From Pseudotabrizicola algicola (lineage in GTDB: Bacteria; Pseudomonadota; Alphaproteobacteria; Rhodobacterales; Rhodobacteraceae), in NCBI RefSeq assembly GCF_010915705.1, contig NZ_JAAIKE010000001.1, positions 992,001-1,056,000 on the forward strand: a DNA stretch of 64,000 nucleotides. Direction: 5' to 3'. The notes under the pieces were generated by a model that did not search any database, was not told where the DNA came from, and saw only the letters and a list, made by a program, of their open reading frames with translations. Both the position numbers and the translations under genes were made by a program. Positions 709-61,088 of this stretch are shown here, piece after piece. Position 1 is the stretch's first letter; each line of letters opens with the position of its first letter.

Positions 709-907
709 GATACCTCCGCCTCTGGTGCGGCCATGCTTGACGGGGCCTTGGTCCGAACGCAAGGGGGCGCGCGCGCGCGGCACAGCCCGAGGGCGCGCTC
801 GTGGCGCTGGGGGGCCATCCTTCGCGCGACATCGGGGCAGGTCGCAAACAGATGCCGCAGGGTCGCCGCCGCTATGCGGCATGATCGGCCCGCGATTATC
901 TTTGCCG
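709..907. promoter_or_regulatory. Divergent intergenic region between the PLP enzyme and the riboswitch
   Basis: This gap of about 200 bp must hold promoters for both the leftward PLP-enzyme gene and the rightward riboswitch-gbcAB transcript. I see no clean -35/-10 pair. A hairpin-prone stretch (CCGCCGCTATGCGGCATG, 867-884) sits just upstream of the aptamer. Confidence 0.4.
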
Positions 908-1075
908 GGCAAGGTGCCGCTGGCGACAGCGGAGAATTGGGAAGCCGGTGCAAGGCCGGCGCTGCCCCCGCAACGGTAAGGGATGCGTGGCGCGACGATC
1001 ACCACTGAGGCAAGACCTTGGGAAGGTGTCGCGTCCGGGCCGCAAGGCCGGCACCCGAGCCCGGAAACCAGCCCT
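908..1075 (+). promoter_or_regulatory. Cobalamin (adenosylcobalamin-type) riboswitch aptamer
   Basis: All conserved blocks of the B12 riboswitch are present in order: AAGGTGCC near 911; GGGAAGCCGGTGCAAGGCCGG around 940-959; the B12 box GCTGCCCCCGCAACGGTAAG at 961-980; CACTGAGGCAAG; the TTGGGAAGG block; and the closing CCCGAGCCCGGAAACCAGCC ending near 1073. It is on the plus strand about 105 nt before gbcA, with no gene between. Downstream, GGGGCA-GCC-TGCCCC (about 1102-1116) and the ribosome-binding region could form the expression platform; no U-run is seen, so translational control is more likely. By family precedent cobalamin should repress the downstream genes. Confidence 0.93.
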
Positions 1076-1179
1076 GCACGAACGGCCACCGTGGCGCGCG
1101 GTGGGGCAGCCTGCCCCTGTCGCGTTCCGCATACCACTATCACCGTTCCCGTGCGGGGAGGCATGGGACAAGCGAGGTC

Positions 1180-2421
1180 ATGATGCTCAGCCAAGGCGAC
1201 ATCCACACAGAATTCCAGTCGCGCCGATCCGGCTATTCCCTCTCACGCGCGCTTTACGTCGATCCGGACGTCTATCAGGCCGATCTGGAGACGATCTGGT
1301 ACAAGGAATGGCTTTTCGCGGTTCCGGCCTGCGAACTGGCCAAGCCGGGGGCCTATGCCACCATGCAGGTGGGGGCCTATCCGGTGGTGGTGATCCGCGG
1401 CAAGGACATGCGCATCCGCGCCTTCCACAACGTCTGCCGCCACCGCGGGCAGCGGCTGTGTTCCAAGGCGTCGGGCTCCACCACCAACCTTGTCTGCCCC
1501 TATCACCAGTGGACCTATGATCTCGAGGGCAAGCTGATCTTTGCCCGCGAAATGGGCGCGGATTTCAAGCCGCAAGACTTCGGGCTGAAGAAGGTGCATT
1601 GCGTCGATCTGGGCGGGGTCATCTACATCTGTCTTGCCGATGTGCCGCCCCCGATCGCCGATCTGGCGAAAACCGCGATGACCTATCTCGCACCCTCGGG
1701 CCTCGCCGATGCCAAGGTGGCCCATACCTCGACCATCACCGAGAAAGGCAATTGGAAGCTGGTGATCGAGAACAACCGCGAGTGCTACCATTGCGGCGGC
1801 TCGCACCCCTCGCTCTGCCGCACCTTTTCTGACAACCCGAAGATCGGCGCGATGGATGGCCCCCATTCGGCCAGCCCCGAGATTCTGGAGCATTGGGCGC
1901 GCTGCGAGGCGGCGGGCCTGCCCTCTCGCTTCGTGCATCATCCGGCGTTCCAGTGGCGGCTGGCGCGGATTCCGCTGCTGAACAATGCCGAAAGCTATAC
2001 GATGAGCACCAAGGCGGCGGTGGCGCGGCGGATGGGGACGATGCCCTTCAACGATGCGGGCAGCCTGCTGATGTATCACTACCCCAATACGTGGAACCAT
2101 TTCCTCGGCGATCACGCGATCACCTTCCGCGTGCTGCCGGTCAGCCCGACCGAGACGCAGGTGACGACGACATGGCTCGTGCACAAGGATGCGGTAGAGG
2201 GCGTGGATTACGACCTGAAGACCCTGACCGAGGTCTGGATCGCCACCAATGACGAGGACCGTCAGGTGGTCGAGGAAAACCAGAAGGGCATCCTGTCGCC
2301 CGCCTATGAACCCGGCCCCTATTCGCCGATCCAGGAAGAGGGCGTGCTGCAATTCGTCGACTGGTATTGCGATGTGATGGGCCAGCGTCTGGCCCCGCAG
2401 CCGGCACAGGCGGCAGAGTGA
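1180..2421 (+). CDS. gbcA: Glycine betaine monooxygenase, Rieske oxygenase subunit
   Basis: Rieske non-heme iron oxygenase predicted to hydroxylate an N-methyl group of glycine betaine, giving dimethylglycine and formaldehyde. The Rieske cluster ligands are C86-x-H88 and C106-x2-H109 (CRHRGQRLC and CPYHQW). The mononuclear iron site is the ENNRECYHCGGSH segment (H204, H209), with a later acidic ligand in the ATNDEDRQ region. About 413 residues, normal for GbcA. Two adjacent ATGs (1180, 1183) follow the GCGAGG ribosome-binding sequence; the second has the better spacing. The TGA overlaps the gbcB ATG, so the two are translationally coupled. Placement behind a B12 riboswitch is the unusual feature. 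Stachydrine- or carnitine-type demethylases are possible alternatives, but the NRECYHC context favours betaine. Confidence 0.88.
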   Translation: MMLSQGDIHTEFQSRRSGYSLSRALYVDPDVYQADLETIWYKEWLFAVPACELAKPGAYATMQVGAYPVVVIRGKDMRIRAFHNVCRHRGQRLCSKASGSTTNLVCPYHQWTYDLEGKLIFAREMGADFKPQDFGLKKVHCVDLGGVIYICLADVPPPIADLAKTAMTYLAPSGLADAKVAHTSTITEKGNWKLVIENNRECYHCGGSHPSLCRTFSDNPKIGAMDGPHSASPEILEHWARCEAAGLPSRFVHHPAFQWRLARIPLLNNAESYTMSTKAAVARRMGTMPFNDAGSLLMYHYPNTWNHFLGDHAITFRVLPVSPTETQVTTTWLVHKDAVEGVDYDLKTLTEVWIATNDEDRQVVEENQKGILSPAYEPGPYSPIQEEGVLQFVDWYCDVMGQRLAPQPAQAAE

Positions 2422-3509
2422 TGGCGCAGAACATCAACTGGTCGGGCAAGCCGTGGCACGAGTCCGAGCCTCTGGAATGTGCCATGGTGGTGCCGGATGT
2501 CGCTGACACCGCCACCTTCACCTTCCGCGCGCCTTCGGGCGCGTGGTTCGACTATCAGCCGGGGCAGTTCATCACGCTGGACCTGCCGGTTGATCCGGCC
2601 AGGGGCGCGGCCGGCAATGTGCAGCGCACCTATACCATCTCCTCCTCGCCCTCGCGGCCGCTGTCGATCTCGATCACCGTCAAGGCGCAGCCGGGCAGCA
2701 TCGGAACGCGCTGGATGCTCGACCATCTGCGACCGGGGATGCGGCTCAAGGCCTATGGCCCCGGCGGGCTGTTCAGCTTTCACCGCCATCCGGCGCAGAA
2801 ATACCTGTTCATCTCGGCGGGGTCCGGCATCACGCCCATGATGTCGATGACGACATGGGCATGGGATTCGGGGCAGATGCCCGACATCACCTTTGTCCAT
2901 GCCGCGCGCCGCCCGTCCGCGATCATCTTCCGCGAACGGCTGGAGCAATTCGCCAACCGCGTGCCGGGGCTGCGGCTGCGCTTCACGGTCAAGGAGCCCG
3001 ATCCGTTCCGCGCCTGGGCGGGTTATCAGGGGCGGCTGAGCCAGATCATGCTGGGCCTGATGGCCCCCGACTATCTGGAACGCGAGGTGTTCTGCTGCGG
3101 GCCGGAGCCGTTCATGCAGAGCGTGCGCGAGATGCTTGTCTCGCTGGGCTATAACATGGACCGTTACCATCAGGAAAGTTTCGGCGCGCCCGCCCGCACG
3201 GTGGCAGAGATGCCGGTGCATGATGATGTGGTGCCCGATGCCGACAGCAGCGCCTCGATCCTGTTTGCGGCCTCGGGTGTCTCGGCCACCTGTTCGCAGA
3301 CCGATACGGTGCTGGCGGTGGCGAAACAGTCGGGGCTGAACATCCCCTCGGGCTGCACGTTCGGGCTGTGCGGCACCTGCAAGGTGCGCAAGCTGTCGGG
3401 CGATGTGCATATGGTCCACAACGGCGGCATTTCCGAGGACGAGGTGGCCGAGGGCTATATCCTCGCCTGCTGTTCGGTACCGATCGGGCATGTGAGCGTC
3501 GAGGTCTGA
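2421..3509 (+). CDS. gbcB: Glycine betaine monooxygenase, ferredoxin/flavin reductase subunit
   Basis: Electron-transfer partner of GbcA: passes electrons from NAD(P)H through FAD and a plant-type [2Fe-2S] centre to the Rieske subunit. The order is an FAD-binding barrel (RTYTISSSPS near residue 72), an NAD-binding domain (SAGSGITPMMSM, then FCCGPEPFM), and a C-terminal ferredoxin domain with the cysteine pattern SGCTFGLCGTCKV followed by LACCS. 362 residues, typical of GbcB. The ATG at 2421 overlaps the gbcA stop (TGATG). It is the second and probably last gene of the riboswitch-controlled operon; a strong hairpin follows. Confidence 0.88.
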   Translation: MAQNINWSGKPWHESEPLECAMVVPDVADTATFTFRAPSGAWFDYQPGQFITLDLPVDPARGAAGNVQRTYTISSSPSRPLSISITVKAQPGSIGTRWMLDHLRPGMRLKAYGPGGLFSFHRHPAQKYLFISAGSGITPMMSMTTWAWDSGQMPDITFVHAARRPSAIIFRERLEQFANRVPGLRLRFTVKEPDPFRAWAGYQGRLSQIMLGLMAPDYLEREVFCCGPEPFMQSVREMLVSLGYNMDRYHQESFGAPARTVAEMPVHDDVVPDADSSASILFAASGVSATCSQTDTVLAVAKQSGLNIPSGCTFGLCGTCKVRKLSGDVHMVHNGGISEDEVAEGYILACCSVPIGHVSVEV

Positions 3510-3517
3510 AGGAAGCA

Positions 3518-3555
3518 GGCGGGCCTGCGGCCTTCGGGCCACGGGTCCGCCCGCC
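3518..3555 (+). terminator. Terminator-like hairpin after gbcB
   Basis: Nine bases after the gbcB stop, GGCGGGCCTGCGGCC pairs with a complementary arm across a TTCG tetraloop, ending GTCCGCCCGCC. The stem is long but imperfect, and no T-run follows. It probably protects the 3' end or terminates inefficiently. Confidence 0.5.
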
Positions 3556-3688
3556 GTGATGCGGCGCGACAAGGCCTTGGATCACCAAGGGCGCGGGGCC
3601 GTCCCTGCGCTTGCGGCATTTCCCCTTGTCGCCCCTGATCGCGGCATCCGCGGGGCAAAAGGGCCAGCGCACCTCCGGCCCCTCGGGG

Positions 3689-4147
3689 TCAGCCCAAAGG
3701 TCCGGGCCGGCGCTCTTCGGTCAGCAGCACATTCGCCTCTACCGTGCCCACCCCCGGCAAGGTCATGATACGCCGCCGCAAGACCCGTTCGAAATCGGCG
3801 ATGTCGCGCGCGACCACCCGCAGGCGATAGTCGAACAGGCCCAGCACATGCTGCACCACCTGCACCTCGGGGATCGCGGTCACCGCCCGCTCGAAATCCT
3901 CGAGGCTCACCCGCCCCCGCGTTGCCAGTTTCACCCCCAGAAACACCGTCACGCCAAAGCCGAGCGCGGCGCGGTCCACCTCCACCCGCCGCCCCGCCAG
4001 CACCCCCGCCTCTTCCAGCCGCCGCACCCGCCGCCATGCGGCGGGCTGGCTGAGGCCAAAGCGCCGCCCGAGTTCCCCCGCCGACACGCCCGCCTCTTGC
4101 GAGAGCGCACGCAGGAAGGCGCGGTCCAGATCATCGAGATCGGTCAT
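3689..4147 (-). CDS. Lrp/AsnC family transcriptional regulator (second of tandem pair)
   Basis: 152-residue feast/famine regulator: N-terminal winged helix-turn-helix (residues about 5-60, recognition segment GRRFGLSQPAAWRRV) and a C-terminal RAM ligand-binding domain (EVQVVQHVLGLFDYRLRVVARD). Its start overlaps the stop of the upstream paralogue by four bases (ATGA), so both are made from one transcript. The two proteins have identical length but clearly different sequence, suggesting a heteromeric pair rather than a recent duplication. The ligand cannot be read from sequence; the divergent neighbour ilvC suggests branched-chain amino acids. Confidence 0.88.
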   Translation of the reverse strand: MTDLDDLDRAFLRALSQEAGVSAGELGRRFGLSQPAAWRRVRRLEEAGVLAGRRVEVDRAALGFGVTVFLGVKLATRGRVSLEDFERAVTAIPEVQVVQHVLGLFDYRLRVVARDIADFERVLRRRIMTLPGVGTVEANVLLTEERRPGPLG

Positions 4148-4602
4148 ATCGGCAGGCCTTCCTCGTCCTTGATGGTGGCAATCAGCATCAAGGCCTCCAG
4201 TTCCGCGATATGCGGCAGGGTCAGGATGCGGCGACGGTAAATCTCCTGATACTGGCCCATGTCGCGCGCGATCACCGTCAGGCGCACATCGACACGGCCC
4301 AGAAAGGTCTCGATCGTGACCACCTCGGGCACCTCGCGCGCAGCGGCGATGAACTCGTCAAAGGCGCGGGGGTTGGTCTTGTCGAGCGTGAAGCGCAAGG
4401 ACACCTCCACCGTGTAACCCAAGGCGCGCCAGTCGATCACCGCCGCCTCGGCCTTTATCACCCCGCCCGCGCGCAGCCGCTCCAGCCGCCGCCACAGCGT
4501 CGCCGCCGTCACCCCCGCGCGCTCGGCCAGATCGGTGCGGTCCAGCCCCGGTTCGGCCAGATAATGCCGCAAGATCCGCCGGTCCGCCTCATCCAGTTGC
4601 AT
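4144..4602 (-). CDS. Lrp/AsnC family transcriptional regulator (first of tandem pair)
   Basis: 152 residues with helix-turn-helix LAERAGVTAATLWRRLERL and RAM-domain landmarks EVVTIETFLGRVDVRLTVIARD. The leftward ATG at 4602 faces ilvC across 125 bp of comparatively AT-rich DNA that contains two inverted repeats. Arrangement as the promoter-proximal member of a two-gene regulator operon, divergent from ketol-acid reductoisomerase, supports local control of ilvC and autoregulation, but that is inference. Confidence 0.9.
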   Translation of the reverse strand: MQLDEADRRILRHYLAEPGLDRTDLAERAGVTAATLWRRLERLRAGGVIKAEAAVIDWRALGYTVEVSLRFTLDKTNPRAFDEFIAAAREVPEVVTIETFLGRVDVRLTVIARDMGQYQEIYRRRILTLPHIAELEALMLIATIKDEEGLPI

Positions 4603-4606
4603 GAAT

Positions 4607-5750
<1,144 letters not shown>

Positions 5751-5770
5751 TCCGCCAACTGATCCGCCGT

Positions 5771-5798
5771 GTAGGGTGCGTGCTCGCACGCACCCTAC
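5771..5798. repeat. Perfect palindrome GTAGGGTGCGTG-CTCG-CACGCACCCTAC
   Basis: A 12-bp perfect inverted repeat with a CTCG loop, 20 bp after ilvC. Palindromes built on 'TAGGGTGCGTGC' recur in many bacterial genomes as dispersed REP-like sequences. Only one copy is in this window, so repetitiveness here is recalled rather than seen. Confidence 0.55.
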
Positions 5799-5819
5799 GC
5801 GGGACCGCGGACCGATCAC

Positions 5820-5858
5820 AAAAGGCCGGGGTGTTTCCCCGGCCTTTCCGTTTTCCGG
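5820..5858 (+). terminator. Rho-independent terminator of ilvC
   Basis: AAAGGCCGGGG, loop TGTTT, then CCCCGGCCTTT, followed by CCGTTTTCC. A strong 11-bp stem with a short T-stretch. Its mirror orientation can also serve the small convergent gene to the right. Confidence 0.85.
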
Positions 5859-5879
5859 CGGGAAGCCCCGCCGCGCGGG

Positions 5880-6083
5880 TCAGCGCAGGCTGCGAAACCG
5901 CGCGCGCTCGGCCAGCGGCAGCAGGAAGGCCACCCCGCCATATTTGCCATCGCGCGCCAGCGTCGATTTGGGCGCGTTCGGGTCATGGCGGCGCGCCTCG
6001 ACGCGGGCCTTGCTCAGCAGGGCGAAAGTCGCCACCGCGAGGAGGGTGAGCAGGGACAGAAAGGGAACAATGGCTCCGGTCAT
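5880..6083 (-). CDS. Small single-pass membrane protein, unknown function
   Basis: 67 residues. A hydrophobic N-terminal segment (about residues 4-24, IVPFLSLLTLLAVATFALLS) is followed by a basic/polar tail. The ATG at 6083 has an AAAGGA ribosome-binding sequence seven bases upstream, which is the main reason to accept it. I do not recognise the family. It is convergent with ilvC across the terminator. Confidence 0.6.
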   Translation of the reverse strand: MTGAIVPFLSLLTLLAVATFALLSKARVEARRHDPNAPKSTLARDGKYGGVAFLLPLAERARFRSLR

Positions 6084-6623: not shown

Positions 6624-8327
6624 ATGACCGTCTCGCAGGACGCGCCCCCGCGCGTCGACCTGATCCCGTCTGAACAGCCCGCATCAGCCGGCACCGATAC
6701 CGACCCGCCCGAGGTCGAGGCGCTGCCCGCCCCCGAAGGGGAGACGGAACTGATCGTGACCGAGTATGAAATCGGCCAGCACAACGTGGCGCCGCGCTAT
6801 GTGCTGGAATTCGACTTCCATCAGAAGGTGTTCACCATCTCTGCTCTGGGTGTGATCGGCTTCACCATCCTGACGCTGGCCTTCCAGAACACGGCAGAGC
6901 CGGTGTTTCTGGCCTTGCGCGACTGGCTGACCGGCAGCCTTGGCTGGTTCTTCCTGCTGGCGGGCAACATTTTTGTGCTCTTGTGCCTCGGACTGATCCT
7001 GTCGCCGCTCGGCCGCATCCGCCTTGGCGGGCCGGAGGCGACGCCCGATTACGGCTATCTGGGCTGGTTCGCGATGCTGTTTGCAGCCGGCATGGGCATC
7101 GGGCTGATGTTCTATGGCGTGTCAGAGCCCCTTTCGCATTACAATGCCGCTCTGGGGGGCGTCAGCCTTGATGACAGTGGCGCGCGGACCGACTGGGCGC
7201 CGCTGGGCGGTGCCGAGGGCGACCCCGAGGCCGCGCTGCGACTGGGCATGGCGGCGACCATCTTCCACTGGGGCCTGCACCCTTGGGCGATCTATGCCAT
7301 CGTGGCGCTGTCGCTGGCGCTGTTTGCCTATAACAAGGGCCTGCCGCTCACGCTGCGCTCGGCATTTTACCCGATCTTCGGAGAGAAAATCTGGGGCTGG
7401 CGCGGCGATGTCGTGGATATCCTTGCGATTTTTGCCACCATCTTCGGCCTTGCCACCTCGCTGGGCATCGGCGCGCAACAGGCAGCGGCGGGGCTCGATT
7501 TCCTGTTCGGCTTCGGCCAGTCGCAATCGCGGCTGATCCTCCTGATCATCGTCATCACGGTGGTGGCCATCGTCTCGGTGATCCGCGGGCTGGAAGGGGG
7601 GGTGAAGCGCCTGTCGGAAGTGAACATGGCGCTTGCGGCGGCGCTGCTGATCTTTGTGATCGCGCTTGGCCCCACAGCCAATATCTTCACCGGATTTTTC
7701 GCCAATCTGGGGGCCTATGGCCAGCACCTGCCCGCGCTTGCCAATCCGTTCGGGCGCGAGGATGCCAATTTCACCGCAGGCTGGACCGCGTTCTACTGGG
7801 CGTGGTGGATCAGCTGGTCGCCCTTCGTGGGCATGTTCATCGCGCGTGTGTCGCGCGGGCGCACGGTGCGCGAGTTCCTGATTGCGGTGCTGATCGTCCC
7901 CAGCCTGTTGTCGGTGCTGTGGATGACCGCCCTTGGCGGCACCGCGATTGACCAGGCGGCAAACGGGGTGAGCGGGGTGCAGGAGGCGGCGCTGGAGCTG
8001 CAACTTTTCGAGATGCTGGGGCAGATGCCGATGGCGGCGCTCACCTCTCTGGTCGGTATCCTGCTGGTGGTGATCTTCTTCGTCACCTCGTCGGACTCCG
8101 GCTCTCTGGTGATTGATACCATCGCCGCCGGAGGCAAGACCAATGCGCCCGTGGTGCAGCGCGTGTTCTGGTGCAGCTTCGAAGGGCTGCTGGCAGTCGC
8201 GCTGTTGCTGGGCGGGGGTCTTGGCGCCTTGCAGGCGATGGCGGTGTCGACCGGACTGCCGTTCACCCTTGTGCTGCTGGCGGCCTGCTATGCCATCGTG
8301 CGCGGGCTGATGAACGAACCGCGCTAG
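6624..8327 (+). CDS. BCCT family betaine/choline/carnitine transporter
   Basis: Twelve-helix secondary carrier for trimethylammonium compounds at the inner membrane, 567 residues. A 70-residue acidic, proline-rich cytoplasmic N-terminus precedes the core. Diagnostic motifs are GMGIGLMFYGVSEP in the unwound TM3 region, FHWGLHPWAIYA, and the family signature FYWAWWISWSPFVGMFIARV followed by SRGRTVREF. The GMGIG glycine motif is like sodium-coupled BetP rather than proton-coupled BetT. No long regulatory C-terminal tail is present, so osmosensing of the BetP kind is unlikely. Close to gbcAB, it would supply the substrate glycine betaine; exact specificity is inferred. Confidence 0.92.
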   Translation: MTVSQDAPPRVDLIPSEQPASAGTDTDPPEVEALPAPEGETELIVTEYEIGQHNVAPRYVLEFDFHQKVFTISALGVIGFTILTLAFQNTAEPVFLALRDWLTGSLGWFFLLAGNIFVLLCLGLILSPLGRIRLGGPEATPDYGYLGWFAMLFAAGMGIGLMFYGVSEPLSHYNAALGGVSLDDSGARTDWAPLGGAEGDPEAALRLGMAATIFHWGLHPWAIYAIVALSLALFAYNKGLPLTLRSAFYPIFGEKIWGWRGDVVDILAIFATIFGLATSLGIGAQQAAAGLDFLFGFGQSQSRLILLIIVITVVAIVSVIRGLEGGVKRLSEVNMALAAALLIFVIALGPTANIFTGFFANLGAYGQHLPALANPFGREDANFTAGWTAFYWAWWISWSPFVGMFIARVSRGRTVREFLIAVLIVPSLLSVLWMTALGGTAIDQAANGVSGVQEAALELQLFEMLGQMPMAALTSLVGILLVVIFFVTSSDSGSLVIDTIAAGGKTNAPVVQRVFWCSFEGLLAVALLLGGGLGALQAMAVSTGLPFTLVLLAACYAIVRGLMNEPR

Positions 8328-25483: not shown

Positions 25484-25530
25484 AGGCCTGCGCAAGCGCA
25501 GCCGTCAGGCCTGCGCAAGCGCAGCCTGTA
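25484..25530. repeat. Tandem duplication at the 3' end of metZ
   Basis: The segment TCAGGCCTGCGCAAGCGCAG occurs twice, 21-22 bp apart. The right copy encodes the last codons (…ALAQA) and stop of metZ; the left copy repeats those codons and stop beyond the gene. It looks like a short in-place duplication, possibly favoured by the internal TGCGCAAGCGCA near-palindrome. Confidence 0.7.
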
Positions 25531-26686
25531 GATCAGCGATCAGGTCGTCCGCATCTTCCAGCCCCACCGACAGCCGGATCAGCCCCGGCGTGATGCCAAG
25601 AGCGTCCTTCTGGTCCTGCGGCAGGCGCTGGTGGGTGGTGGTGGCCGGATGGGTGGCAATCGTCTTGGCATCGCCCAGATTGTTGGAAATCTTGGCGATC
25701 TCCAAGGCGTTCATGAAGCGGAAGGCCGCCTCCTTGCCCGCCGCGATGTCAAAGGTCACCAAGGTGCCGCCCGACCCCATCTGCGCCATCGCCAGCCCGT
25801 GCTGCGGATGGCTTGCCAGCCCCGGATAGATCACCCGCGAAAGCTTGGGATGACCCTCGAGCGCGGATGCGATCTTCAGGGCGCTGTCGGCCATCGCGCG
25901 GCAGCGCAGGTCCAGCGTCGCCATGCCGTTCAGATGCATCCATGCGGTAAAGGGCGACATGCTGCCGCCGGTATGCTTCATGTAGGGCTCCAGCACCTTG
26001 CGGATGAACTGGCTGGTGCCGCAGACCACGCCGCCCAGCGCGCGCCCCTGCCCGTCGATGTGCTTGGTGGTGGAATAGACGATCACATCGGCGCGTTGCT
26101 CCACCGCGCGCGAAAAGATCGGGGTGGCAAAGACATTGTCCACCACCACAAGCGCGCCCACCGCATGGGCAATCTCGGCCACCGCCGCGATGTCCACCAG
26201 CTCCAGCGTCGGGTTCGACATCGATTCGAAGAACACCGCCTTGGTGCCGGGCGTCACCGCCGCGCGCCACTGGTCCAGATCGGCCCCGTCGACAAAGGTC
26301 ACCTTCACGCCATAGCGCGTCAGCACCTCCTCGAGGATATAGAGGCACGACCCGAACAGCGCGCGGCTCGACACCACATGGTCGCCCGCCCGCAGCATCG
26401 CCGTCAGCGCGCCCGACACCGCCGCCATGCCGCTCGCGGTGGCAAAGGCATCCTCGGTGCCCTCCAGCGCCGCGATGCGCTCTTCGAACATGCGTGTGGT
26501 CGGGTTGCCATAGCGGGCATAGATGAATTCATCTGCCCCCGCCTGCACGAAACGCTGCTCCGCCGCCTCGGCGGTCGGATAGACAAAGCCCTGCGTCAGG
26601 AAGATCGCCTCGGCCATCTCGCCATACTGGCTGCGCCGCGTGCCCTCATGCACCAGTTTCGTGCGCGTGTTCCAAGTCTCAGACAT
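25505..26686 (-). CDS. metZ: O-succinylhomoserine sulfhydrylase
   Basis: PLP-dependent direct sulfhydrylation of an activated homoserine to homocysteine for methionine synthesis. 393 residues from the ATG at 26686 (MSETWNTRTKLVHEGTRRSQ). Cys/Met metabolism landmarks: FIYARYGNPTTRMFEERIAALEG, SGMAAV, FESMSNPTLELVDI, VVVDNVFATPI, and the Schiff-base lysine in VIYSTTKHIDGQGRALGG-type sequence (YSTTKHIDGQGR). Thr and Gly around HQRLPQDQ fit MetZ rather than MetB or MetY. A SAM-II riboswitch and a terminator precede it, so expression should fall when SAM is plentiful. Confidence 0.92.
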   Translation of the reverse strand: MSETWNTRTKLVHEGTRRSQYGEMAEAIFLTQGFVYPTAEAAEQRFVQAGADEFIYARYGNPTTRMFEERIAALEGTEDAFATASGMAAVSGALTAMLRAGDHVVSSRALFGSCLYILEEVLTRYGVKVTFVDGADLDQWRAAVTPGTKAVFFESMSNPTLELVDIAAVAEIAHAVGALVVVDNVFATPIFSRAVEQRADVIVYSTTKHIDGQGRALGGVVCGTSQFIRKVLEPYMKHTGGSMSPFTAWMHLNGMATLDLRCRAMADSALKIASALEGHPKLSRVIYPGLASHPQHGLAMAQMGSGGTLVTFDIAAGKEAAFRFMNALEIAKISNNLGDAKTIATHPATTTHQRLPQDQKDALGITPGLIRLSVGLEDADDLIADLQAALAQA

Positions 26687-26700
26687 GCCGTCACCTTTCG

Positions 26701-26738
26701 GCAAAAAGAAAACCCCGAAACCGGCAAAGGTTTCGGGG
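26701..26738 (-). terminator. Intrinsic terminator in the metZ leader
   Basis: On the minus strand CCCCGAAACC, loop TTTGCC, then GGTTTCGGGG followed by TTTTCTTTTT. A perfect 10-bp stem with a long T-run, placed between the SAM-II aptamer and the metZ ribosome-binding site. This is a textbook transcription-attenuation platform. Confidence 0.92.
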
Positions 26739-26751
26739 CCCATCCCCAAGA

Positions 26752-57389: not shown

Positions 57390-57854
57390 TTACGCCATGC
57401 GGAAGGTCAGCGCCGCCCCGTTCATGCAGTATCGCTTGCCCGTGGGCTGCGGCCCGTCGCCGAAAACATGGCCGAAATGCCCGCCGCAACGGCGGCAATG
57501 CACCTCGGTCCGGCTGCCGAACAGGCTCCGGTCTTCCTTGGTGCGGATGGCATCGGGCAACGGCTGCCAGAAGCTGGGCCAGCCCGTGCCGCTGTCATAC
57601 TTGTGCTGCGAGGAAAACACCGGCAGATCGCAGCCCGCGCAATGATAGGTGCCTGCCCGCGTCTCCTTGTCCAGCGGACTGGTAAAGGCCCGCTCCGTCG
57701 CCTCTTCGCGCAGCACGCGGTAGGCCAGATCGCTCAACCTCGCGCGCCATTCGGCCTCGGTCAGCTGAAATTCAAAGGAGCCTTCGGCAGCCCAGGCCGA
57801 CCGTCCCAGCACCGTCAGGGCGATGCCTCCCATCATGACCGCACGTCTGTTCAT
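57390..57854 (-). CDS. msrB: Exported peptide-methionine (R)-S-oxide reductase
   Basis: 154 residues with an N-terminal export signal ([22 protein letters not shown], twin-arginine-poor, Sec or Tat). The mature enzyme has [23 protein letters not shown] and [13 protein letters not shown] (two CxxC zinc pairs), SGTGWPSFW, and the catalytic [11 protein letters not shown] (Cys, with NGA instead of the usual NSA/NSL). Reduces methionine-R-sulfoxide in the periplasm. It lies in reverse orientation between the J-domain gene and cobS. Confidence 0.95.
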
Positions 57855-58041
57855 CACCGTCTCCCTTTGCACAAAGCCTATGCCGCTTTTACGCGAAGCG
57901 CGCGCAAAAGGTTTCAGCCTCACGCAAACGCGATCCGCTGCCACATTGGCACCGATTGCCGCCCTTCCCCTTGAACCCTGCCGTGTTATGTTCCACAACT
58001 TCACCGGAATGGGCCAAAGGGCCGGGACAGGACTGAGCAGG

Positions 58042-59016
58042 ATGCTGGATCACGCGATGAAACCGACTGAAGAAATCTCTGTGCGTGAGGTGTTCGGCAT
58101 CGACACCGACATGAAGGTGAAGGGCTTTGCCGAGCCGACGGACCGCGTCCCCGCGATCGACCCGACCTACAAGTTCGATCCCGACACCACATTGGCGATT
58201 CTGGCCGGCTTTGCCTATAACCGGCGCGTCATGATCCAGGGCTATCACGGCACCGGAAAATCGACGCATATCGAACAGGTGGCCGCCCGCCTGAACTGGC
58301 CCGCCGTGCGCGTCAACCTTGACAGCCACATCAGCCGGATCGACCTGATCGGCAAGGATGCGATCAAGCTGCGCGACGGCAAGCAGGTGACCGAATTCCA
58401 CGAAGGCATCCTGCCTTGGGCGCTGCGCAACCCTGTGGCGATCGTGTTCGACGAATATGACGCAGGCCGCGCCGATGTGATGTTCGTGATCCAGCGCGTG
58501 CTGGAAACCGACGGCAAGCTGACGCTGCTGGACCAGAACGAGATCATCACGCCCCACCCGTCCTTCCGGTTGTTTGCCACCGCAAATACCGTGGGTCTGG
58601 GCGATACGACGGGCCTCTATCACGGCACCCAGCAGATCAACCAGGCGCAGATGGACCGCTGGAGCCTTGTCGCCACGCTGAACTACCTCAGCCATGATGC
58701 CGAAGCCGCAATCGTTCTGGCCAAGAGCCCGCATTACAACACCGAGGCGGGGCGCAAGAAGATCGGCCAGATGGTGACCGTGGCGGAACTGACGCGCACG
58801 GCCTTCATGAATGGCGATCTGTCCACCGTGATGAGCCCGCGCACCGTGCTCAACTGGGCGCAGAATGCCGAGATTTTCCGCAATGTCGGCTATGCCTTCC
58901 GGCTGACCTTCCTGAACAAGTGCGACGAACTGGAACGGCAGACGGTCGCCGAATTCTACCAGCGCTGTTTTGCCGAGGAATTGCCCGAAAGCGCCGCCTC
59001 TATGGCAATGAAGTAA
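58042..59016 (+). CDS. cobS: Aerobic cobaltochelatase, CobS subunit
   Basis: AAA+ ATPase subunit of the CobNST cobaltochelatase that inserts cobalt into hydrogenobyrinate diamide in aerobic B12 synthesis. 324 residues from the ATG at 58042; the ATG at 58057 is an alternative. [19 protein letters not shown], Walker [29 protein letters not shown] (Walker B), [12 protein letters not shown] (sensor 1), and [11 protein letters not shown]. No B12 riboswitch is visible upstream. cobT follows after a repeat-bearing gap of 200 bp. Confidence 0.95.
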
Positions 59017-59216: not shown

Positions 59217-61088
59217 ATGACAAAACCAAGCGACAACCCCGCCGATCCGTTCAAGAAGGCCCTTGCCGAGGCCACCAAGGTGCTTGCCGACGATCCGGAG
59301 ATGACCGTCAGCTATTCGGTCGATCCGCCCGGCATGAACCGCGACGGGGTGCGCCTGCCGCAGGTCAGCCGCCGGATGACGCGGGACGAGGTCTTGCTGG
59401 CGCGCGGCACGGCAGATGCCTTTGCCTTGCGGCGCAAATATCACGACGAGGCGGTTTCCTCGCGCTATGCCCCCACAGGGCAGCTCGCCCGTGACATTTA
59501 CGATGCAATGGAAACTGCGCGCTGCGAGGCGGTGGGGGCGCGGGCCATGCCCGGCACGGCGGGCAATATCGACGCCAAGATCGGGCATGAGGCCGACCGC
59601 AAGGGCTATGGCCAGATCACCAGCACGCAGGACGCGCCCTTGTCGGTTGCGGCGGGCTATCTGGTGCGGCATCTGGCAACAGGGCGGAGCCTGCCACCGG
59701 GGGCCGCCAATGTGATGAACCTGTGGCGCGGCTTCATTGAAGAGCAGGCCAGCGGCACCTTGGAGAACATCGACCATGTGCTGGCCGATCAGGCGGCCTT
59801 TGCCCGTCTGGCGCGCAAGGTGATTTCCGACCTCGGCTATGGCGACCAGCTTGGCGATGATCCGGACGCGCCCGACGACGATCAGGCCGACGACGAGGCC
59901 CAGCAGGATGAAGACAGCCCCGAAAGCGAAGGGGATGAACAATCCGAGCAGGACGAATCCGAAGCCAGCCCCGAGCGGTCGCAGGAAGAACAGCAGGACC
60001 AGTCGCAGGCGCAGGTGTCGATGGAAGACAGCGCCGATATGGAACAGGGCGACGAGACGGAACTGCCCGAGGGCGAGGCCCCGCTGGAGCCGCCGCCCCC
60101 TGCCCCGCATTCCTCGGCCGATCCGAATTACGTTGTCTACACCACGGATTTCGATGAGGAAATCCGCGCCGAAGACCTTGCCGAACCCGCCGAACTGGAA
60201 CGGCTGCGCGCCTATCTGGACCAGCAGCTGGAGCCGCTCAAGGGCGCGGTCAGCCGGCTGGCCAACAAGCTGCAACGCCGTCTGCAGGCGCAGCAGAACC
60301 GCTCATGGGACTTCGATCTGGAAGAAGGCACGCTGGATGCGGGCCGTCTGGCGCGGGTGGTGGCAAACCCGACCACGCCGCTCAGCTTCAAGCAGGAGAA
60401 GGACACCGAGTTCCGCGACACCTGCGTGACGCTCTTGCTCGACAATTCCGGCTCCATGCGGGGACGCCCGATTTCGATTGCCGCGATCTGCGCCGATGTG
60501 CTGGCCCGCACGCTGGAGCGGTGCTCGGTCAAGGTGGAGATCCTTGGCTTCACCACCCGCGCGTGGAAAGGCGGGCAGAGCCGCGAGCGGTGGCTGGCCC
60601 AAGGGCGCGCACAGCAGCCCGGGCGGCTGAACGATCTGCGCCACATCATCTACAAGGGGGCAGATGCCCCGTGGCGGCGCGCGCGGCCCAATCTGGGCCT
60701 GATGATGAAAGAGGGCCTGCTCAAGGAAAACATCGACGGCGAGGCGCTGGAATGGGCGCACCGCCGCGCGGCGGCCCGCCCCGAGGCGCGCAAGATCCTG
60801 ATGGTTATTTCCGACGGCGCGCCGGTGGATGACAGCACCCTGTCGGTCAATCCGGCGAATTTTCTGGAAAAGCACCTACGCGATGTCATTGCGATGGTCG
60901 AGCGCAAGCGGGCGGTGGAGCTGATCGCCATCGGCATCGGCCATGATGTGACGCGCTACTACCAGCGTGCGGTGACGATCACCGATGTCGAGCAACTGGC
61001 GGGCGCGATGACCGAGCAGCTTGCCGGATTGTTCGACACCGATCCGCGCAAGCGGGCGCGGGCCTTGGGAATGCGCAAGGTCGGCTGA
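59217..61088 (+). CDS. cobT: Aerobic cobaltochelatase, CobT subunit
   Basis: 623 residues. N-terminal CobT domain ([39 protein letters not shown]), a long acidic linker (about 215-285, rich in D/E/Q/S), and a C-terminal VWA domain with a MIDAS motif in [18 protein letters not shown], with [14 protein letters not shown]. Forms the chaperone-like ring with CobS that drives cobalt insertion by CobN (not in the window). No clear ribosome-binding sequence. Supports aerobic cobalamin synthesis in this organism. Confidence 0.95.

Follow-up and report, generated by a model that had tools for sequence, protein, structure and literature searches.

Why should an RNA that senses vitamin B12 (cobalamin) be located directly upstream of genes for an oxygen-dependent demethylase of quaternary ammonium compounds? 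The question is raised by a locus in a stretch of 64,000 nucleotides from the genome of Pseudotabrizicola algicola (contig NZ_JAAIKE010000001.1, positions 992,001 to 1,056,000), referred to as the window in the following. Here, a cobalamin riboswitch is followed by the gene of a Rieske oxygenase and then by that of a reductase, with no gene in between. We consider it likely that the riboswitch controls the translation of a B12-independent stand-in for the corrinoid-dependent (MttB/MtgC) demethylation of betaine. The locus comprises the following elements, given in window positions:

895-1090, plus strand: cobalamin riboswitch aptamer (RF00174; 108.2 bits against a gathering threshold of 31.5, E-value 3.8e-26)
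1147-1168, plus strand: probable expression-platform hairpin in the predicted fold (stem of 8 base pairs, loop GGGGAG at 1155-1160)
1174-1177, plus strand: likely Shine-Dalgarno sequence GAGG, as read from the sequence, 5 nucleotides before the start at 1183
1183-2421, plus strand: Rieske oxygenase subunit of the Stc2/GbcA type (412 amino acids; Pfam Rieske and Ring_hydroxyl_A)
2421-3509, plus strand: GbcB-like reductase subunit (362 amino acids; Pfam NAD_binding_1 and Fer2)

The aptamer covers the RF00174 model in full length (model positions 1-189 of 189) and passes its gathering threshold, which identifies it as a cobalamin riboswitch. A first-pass annotation, made from the nucleotide letters alone, had described a complete B12 riboswitch on the plus strand with two demethylase genes directly behind it. 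The covariance model search bears out the element and the gene order stands as described, whereas the start given for the element (908) falls within the aptamer, 13 bases from its 5' end. The oxygenase most likely starts at 1183, with a further in-frame ATG at 1180, and its stop codon (2419-2421) is overlapped by the start of the reductase at 2421.

Between the aptamer and the oxygenase gene, the G-run in the loop of the hairpin is predicted to pair with a C-run in the L5 region of the aptamer. Such a loop contact between L5 and a hairpin close to the start codon is the usual switch of cobalamin riboswitches. The stem is present in the predicted fold, yet shuffled versions of the stretch fold about as well (z -0.26). 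A G-loop hairpin was found in 17 of 32 riboswitch leaders, compared to 3 of 49 other leaders and 119 of 1600 shuffles. Consensus scans of positions 700-1250 gave no terminator-like site (mean of 0.3 in shuffles) and no sigma-70-like site (mean of 0.0); since the shuffles let few such sites be expected, this is weak negative evidence.

Judged by its family, the oxygenase is a betaine-type demethylase. It has the Rieske and the catalytic domain, a full-length match and the partner reductase that characterize quaternary-ammonium demethylases of the Stc2/GbcA type. The nearest solved chains are 3n0q and Stc2; the match to the latter (3vca, 4qup) is near-full-length with 573 bits, and the identity to Stc2-type proteins is about 58%. 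Glycine betaine or proline betaine is the most likely substrate. The gene names gbcA and gbcB given at first pass are only partly supported. They hold for family and architecture, but both curated equivalog cut-offs are missed: the oxygenase, read from 1180, reaches 494.4 of 670 bits (NF058607) and the reductase 363.1 of 500 bits (NF058606). On the same GbcA model Stc2 scores 497.8 bits and eight other relatives 466-543 bits, and none reaches 670. Because the protein lies below the cut-off and scores like Stc2, a stachydrine demethylase, glycine betaine is an unproven substrate, and GbcA was not accepted as a secure name; gbcAB is used below as a label for the gene type. Neither subunit has a corrinoid domain among its Pfam domains, which, together with the B12 riboswitch in front, is as expected of a riboswitch-controlled B12-independent isoenzyme.

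The pair resembles two known systems. With the glycine betaine monooxygenase GbcAB it has the two-component architecture and the family in common, and it differs in missing the cut-offs and in standing under an RNA element. GbcAB itself is regulated by a known betaine regulator, unlike the window pair. Stc2 of Sinorhizobium meliloti (pSymA) has the same GbcA-model score as the window oxygenase, but the members of its clade in the tree are without a riboswitch, except for a marginal leader in Primorskyibacter (L084).

The pairing of riboswitch and oxygenase is conserved beyond this genome. The best 80 relatives of the oxygenase from a public genome collection were taken as locus set, and an own covariance model was trained on 19 leaders, of which 15 belong to this set. 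It matches directly upstream of the oxygenase, on the same strand, at 31 of 80 loci. All 19 riboswitch loci submitted to Rfam were confirmed, two of them barely (31.8 and 32.0 bits); the other 12 of the 31 stood outside this check and are all among the leaders that trained the own model. At 13 loci without an own-model match, Rfam gave no riboswitch either. In a family-wide sample, an oxygenase relative occurs in 88 of 394 genomes at 92 places, of which 90 were examined (G273:C215 and G006:C45, 43% and 40% identical, were left out). The own model matches 36 of these 90 loci, and 34, the window included, pass the Rfam threshold. The leaders of G238 and G311 match the own model (50 and 35.5 bits) but miss the threshold of Rfam; they were taken as riboswitch-less in the co-occurrence counts and as riboswitch-bearing in the kinship-aware pair test. 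As the pairing recurs at 31 of the 80 and at 34 of the 90 loci, chance adjacency was dismissed. Furthermore, both partners change in 31 of the 51 pairs of the aptamers, and oxygenase and reductase are the only widely recurring genes around the 80 loci.

The genome of P. algicola, which is listed as 100% complete, holds four RF00174 matches including the window aptamer. One precedes a TonB receptor gene with periplasmic-binding and FecCD genes (btu-like), one is located upstream of cbtA and one upstream of class I ribonucleotide reductase (nrd) genes. Since matches of the NrdJ type above the cut-off are also present, the nrd riboswitch fits the isoenzyme pattern. Just upstream of the nrd riboswitch is a split metH, and no match to the MetE catalytic domain (PF01717) was found in the genome. 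The B12-dependent counterpart of the window pair is represented by four divergent MttB-family genes and a free-standing corrinoid protein with MtgC as best-matching model; a common substrate is presumed. One of the MttB genes comes after two genes whose DAO, FAO_M and GCV_T domains are those of dimethylglycine/sarcosine dehydrogenases.

Co-occurrence points in the same direction. MttB, MtgC and cobI were counted in 80 of the 88 genomes (left out: G006, G042, G083, G318, G329, G338, G341 and G381; seven of these eight had loci examined, where no riboswitch was found). Genomes with the riboswitch-oxygenase pair have a median of 4 MttB genes, those without it 1.5. At least two MttB genes are present in 31 of 34 pair genomes and in 23 of 46 others, counts which ignore kinship; with the left-out genomes added, for which values run up to three, the ratio becomes 31/34 to 25/54. 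Among assemblies at least 90% complete, MttB and MtgC occur together in 31/31 genomes with and 39/46 without the pair (p 0.04, kinship ignored). The plain presence of MttB differs weakly (34/34 vs 41/46, p 0.07), as almost the whole family has such a gene (374 of 394 genomes, with the top three candidates scored per genome).

In addition, some neighbourhoods in relatives are telling. In Roseibium aquae (L062) and R. hamelinense (L070), mtgC, a DUF1638 gene, mtgD and ramA are arranged head-to-head with riboswitch-gbcAB. The two MtgC proteins are 80-81% identical to the MtgC-like protein of the window genome, mtgD belongs to the methyltetrahydrofolate:corrinoid methyltransferase family and ramA carries RACo domains; these gene calls were made by domain scans for L062 and L070 ramA and by similarity for the remainder. 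The second copy in R. aquae (L058) has no riboswitch and adjoins a flavin-oxidoreductase gene. In Hoeflea alexandrii (L049), mesX, MesD-like and flavin-reductase-like genes (2812-5474, plus strand) are located just upstream of riboswitch-gbcAB, with nrdA further along. MesD/MesX make methionine without B12 and require oxygen (PMC7857596), and the flavin-reductase-like gene would fit the use of a flavin by MesX that is guessed at there. In Rhizobiales bacterium Y (L093), three separate cobalamin riboswitches precede metE, nrdA and gbcAB, and an MttB gene in divergent orientation is found at the Ruegeria locus L059. A further cobalamin riboswitch lies nearby at 6 of 31 riboswitch loci and at none of 49 others, whereas a flavin-oxidoreductase gene is found at 0 of 31 and 15 of 49.

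Several observations on these loci stand apart. Second or third cobalamin riboswitches occur within about 3 kb of riboswitch-gbcAB at L104, L133, L142 and L143. Rubellimicrobium thermophilum (L029, 6001-7235, plus strand) has an intact-looking riboswitch before an oxygenase frame that is broken as deposited, by sequencing error or decay. The degenerate leader L155 (699-876, plus strand) belongs to genome G311, which has neither an MttB nor an MtgC match, as if the switch had decayed after loss of the corrinoid system. At G283:C7:145949-149811 and G320:C16:317130-321757, an oxygenase gene without riboswitch has an MttB gene in the same orientation some 1-2 kb further downstream. At six Paracoccus loci (L034, L037, L040, L042, L043 and L047, about 1700-6000), class Ib nrd genes are divergent from the oxygenase genes and have no cobalamin riboswitch; no regulator was found there, which raises the question of another common control. 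Finally, two Paracoccus carry SECIS_3 selenocysteine elements some 2 kb past the oxygenase gene (L023, 9071-9129, and L033, 9062-9120, both plus strand).

A number of results weigh against a B12-controlled stand-in for corrinoid-dependent betaine demethylation. Apart from the missed GbcA cut-off, the MtgC-like protein of the genome stays below its own curated threshold (203.5 vs 370 bits). Most relatives have no riboswitch, including Pseudotabrizicola formosa of the same genus and Paracoccus, and many of them have MttB. MtgC taken alone does not differ significantly between genomes with and without the pair (32/34 vs 40/46, p 0.46); the two riboswitch genomes that lack it are 84% and 73% complete as assembled. 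Near the oxygenase, neither corrinoid-system genes (MttB, MtgC, MtgD, RamA, MetH; 5/31 vs 4/49, p 0.30) nor nrd genes (6/31 vs 6/49, p 0.52) are significantly enriched. The kinship-aware independent-pairs test goes in the same direction as the plain counts, with 7 usable pairs of which too few differ, and is underpowered.

The alternatives have to be measured against the same data. One of them, the first model of the first-pass annotation, is that betaine demethylation belongs to the B12 regulon as a source of both glycine, needed for aminolevulinate, and methyl groups for B12 synthesis. It draws on two genes whose presence in the window was correctly noted:

57823-59016, plus strand: CobS
59217-61088, plus strand: CobT

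Moreover, cobI is present in 25 of the 34 genomes with the pair. The window genome, however, gave no match to cobI (TIGR01467) at an E-value of 1e-20 and has only three TP_methylase genes, so that it very probably lacks the capacity for corrin ring synthesis, despite retaining cobS and cobT. cobI is likewise lacking in 9 of 34 pair genomes, compared to 10 of 46 without the pair, and oxidative demethylation yields formaldehyde and not an activated methyl group (PMC12478193). This model is highly improbable and was dropped. Equally improbable is a leader that is a relic or a chance neighbour and exerts no control over gbcAB. In favour of this idea, the riboswitch state requires at least seven changes on one tree and at least eight on another, the latter with the broken-frame row L029 on an absurdly long branch, and some degenerate leaders occur (L084, L032, L145 and L155). 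Against this, the aptamers are full-length and high-scoring with changes on both sides of their pairs, the G-loop hairpin recurs ahead of the start codon and the riboswitch is retained while other neighbours change; we therefore regard a relic as very unlikely.

More serious is the idea that the oxygenase acts on the substrate of another MttB paralogue (proline betaine, carnitine or butyrobetaine) instead of glycine betaine, which would leave the B12-backup logic unchanged. The identity of about 58% to Stc2-type proteins, the Stc2-like score on the GbcA model and the four divergent MttB genes speak for it. On the other hand, one of these MttB genes sits with the dimethylglycine-dehydrogenase-like genes, so that glycine betaine demethylation is to be expected in this genome, and no proline-betaine genes stand beside the riboswitch loci, as the distribution of the flavin-oxidoreductase gene indicates. 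Such a substrate is a real possibility, to which we give somewhat less than an even chance.

Since a B12-sensing RNA stands directly before demethylase genes, the enzyme is probably made mainly when B12 is too scarce for the B12-dependent system. With ample B12, the aptamer would bind it, the hairpin ahead of the ribosome-binding site would be held and the genes would be off; demethylation would then proceed via MttB-type methyltransferases and the MtgC-like protein, which would pass the methyl groups to folate. With scarce B12, the leader would open, the oxygenase would be made and the methyl groups would leave as formaldehyde, with no B12 needed. gbcAB would accordingly be a B12-independent isoenzyme within the B12 regulon, like metE or the class I nrd genes. 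This corresponds to the second model given at first pass, a replacement of a corrinoid-dependent demethylase at low B12, which is supported, at the level of genome comparison, by the co-occurrence with MttB and MtgC-like genes and by some of the neighbourhoods. The first-pass interpretation is hence partly supported as a whole.

The cobalamin riboswitches of metE and of class I nrd genes likewise place a B12-sensing leader ahead of the replacement of a B12-dependent enzyme. Their targets serve methionine and deoxynucleotide synthesis, whereas the window riboswitch precedes a Rieske oxygenase of quaternary ammonium catabolism. MesD/MesX (PMC7857596) is an aerobic B12-free substitute as well, and adjoins riboswitch-gbcAB in H. 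alexandrii, but makes methionine and consists of proteins unrelated to the window pair. MtgBCD (PMC12478193) presumably has the same task as the window pair, co-occurs with it and adjoins it in the two Roseibium; it transfers methyl groups via a corrinoid to folate, in contrast to the oxygen-dependent release of formaldehyde by the window pair.

The dependence of betaine demethylation on the cobalamin-binding MtgC is a recent result from a model marine member of the Rhodobacteraceae (PMC12478193). According to that article, Ruegeria pomeroyi needs mtgC and mtgD to demethylate glycine betaine, two pfam06253 proteins increase on betaine, gbcAB is described as a route of other bacteria, and the sole mention of riboswitches is a reference on glycine riboswitches. 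Literature searches turned up no description of a cobalamin riboswitch upstream of gbcAB or of Rieske demethylase genes, and the words betaine, Rieske and gbc are absent from the main text of PMC3766115, supplements aside. B12 riboswitches before B12-independent isoenzymes are thus known already, and a catabolic Rieske demethylase as their target was not found in print.

Two further features of the window may be added. The betaine-type carrier named at first pass (6624-8327) proved to be a BCCT carrier (449.6 bits against a cut-off of 407.55) and fell short of the glycine-betaine BCCT model (489.8 vs 650 bits). A SAM_alpha riboswitch (RF00521, 54.9 bits) is located at 26812-26736 on the minus strand, ahead of a minus-strand gene (25505-26749), a putative metZ.

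On balance, the evidence favours a wider view for the Alphaproteobacteria, in which a B12-sensing switch would choose between a corrinoid route at high B12, where folate retains the methyl group, and an oxygenase route at low B12, where it is released as formaldehyde. gbcAB would then form the third riboswitch-controlled class of B12-independent isoenzymes beside methionine synthase and ribonucleotide reductase, and osmolyte turnover would be tied to B12 supply. The pairing offers a concrete, testable answer to the question of what happens to betaine in such cells once B12 runs out, and riboswitch and oxygenase genes together may serve as a genomic sign of bacteria able to decouple betaine turnover from B12 supply.

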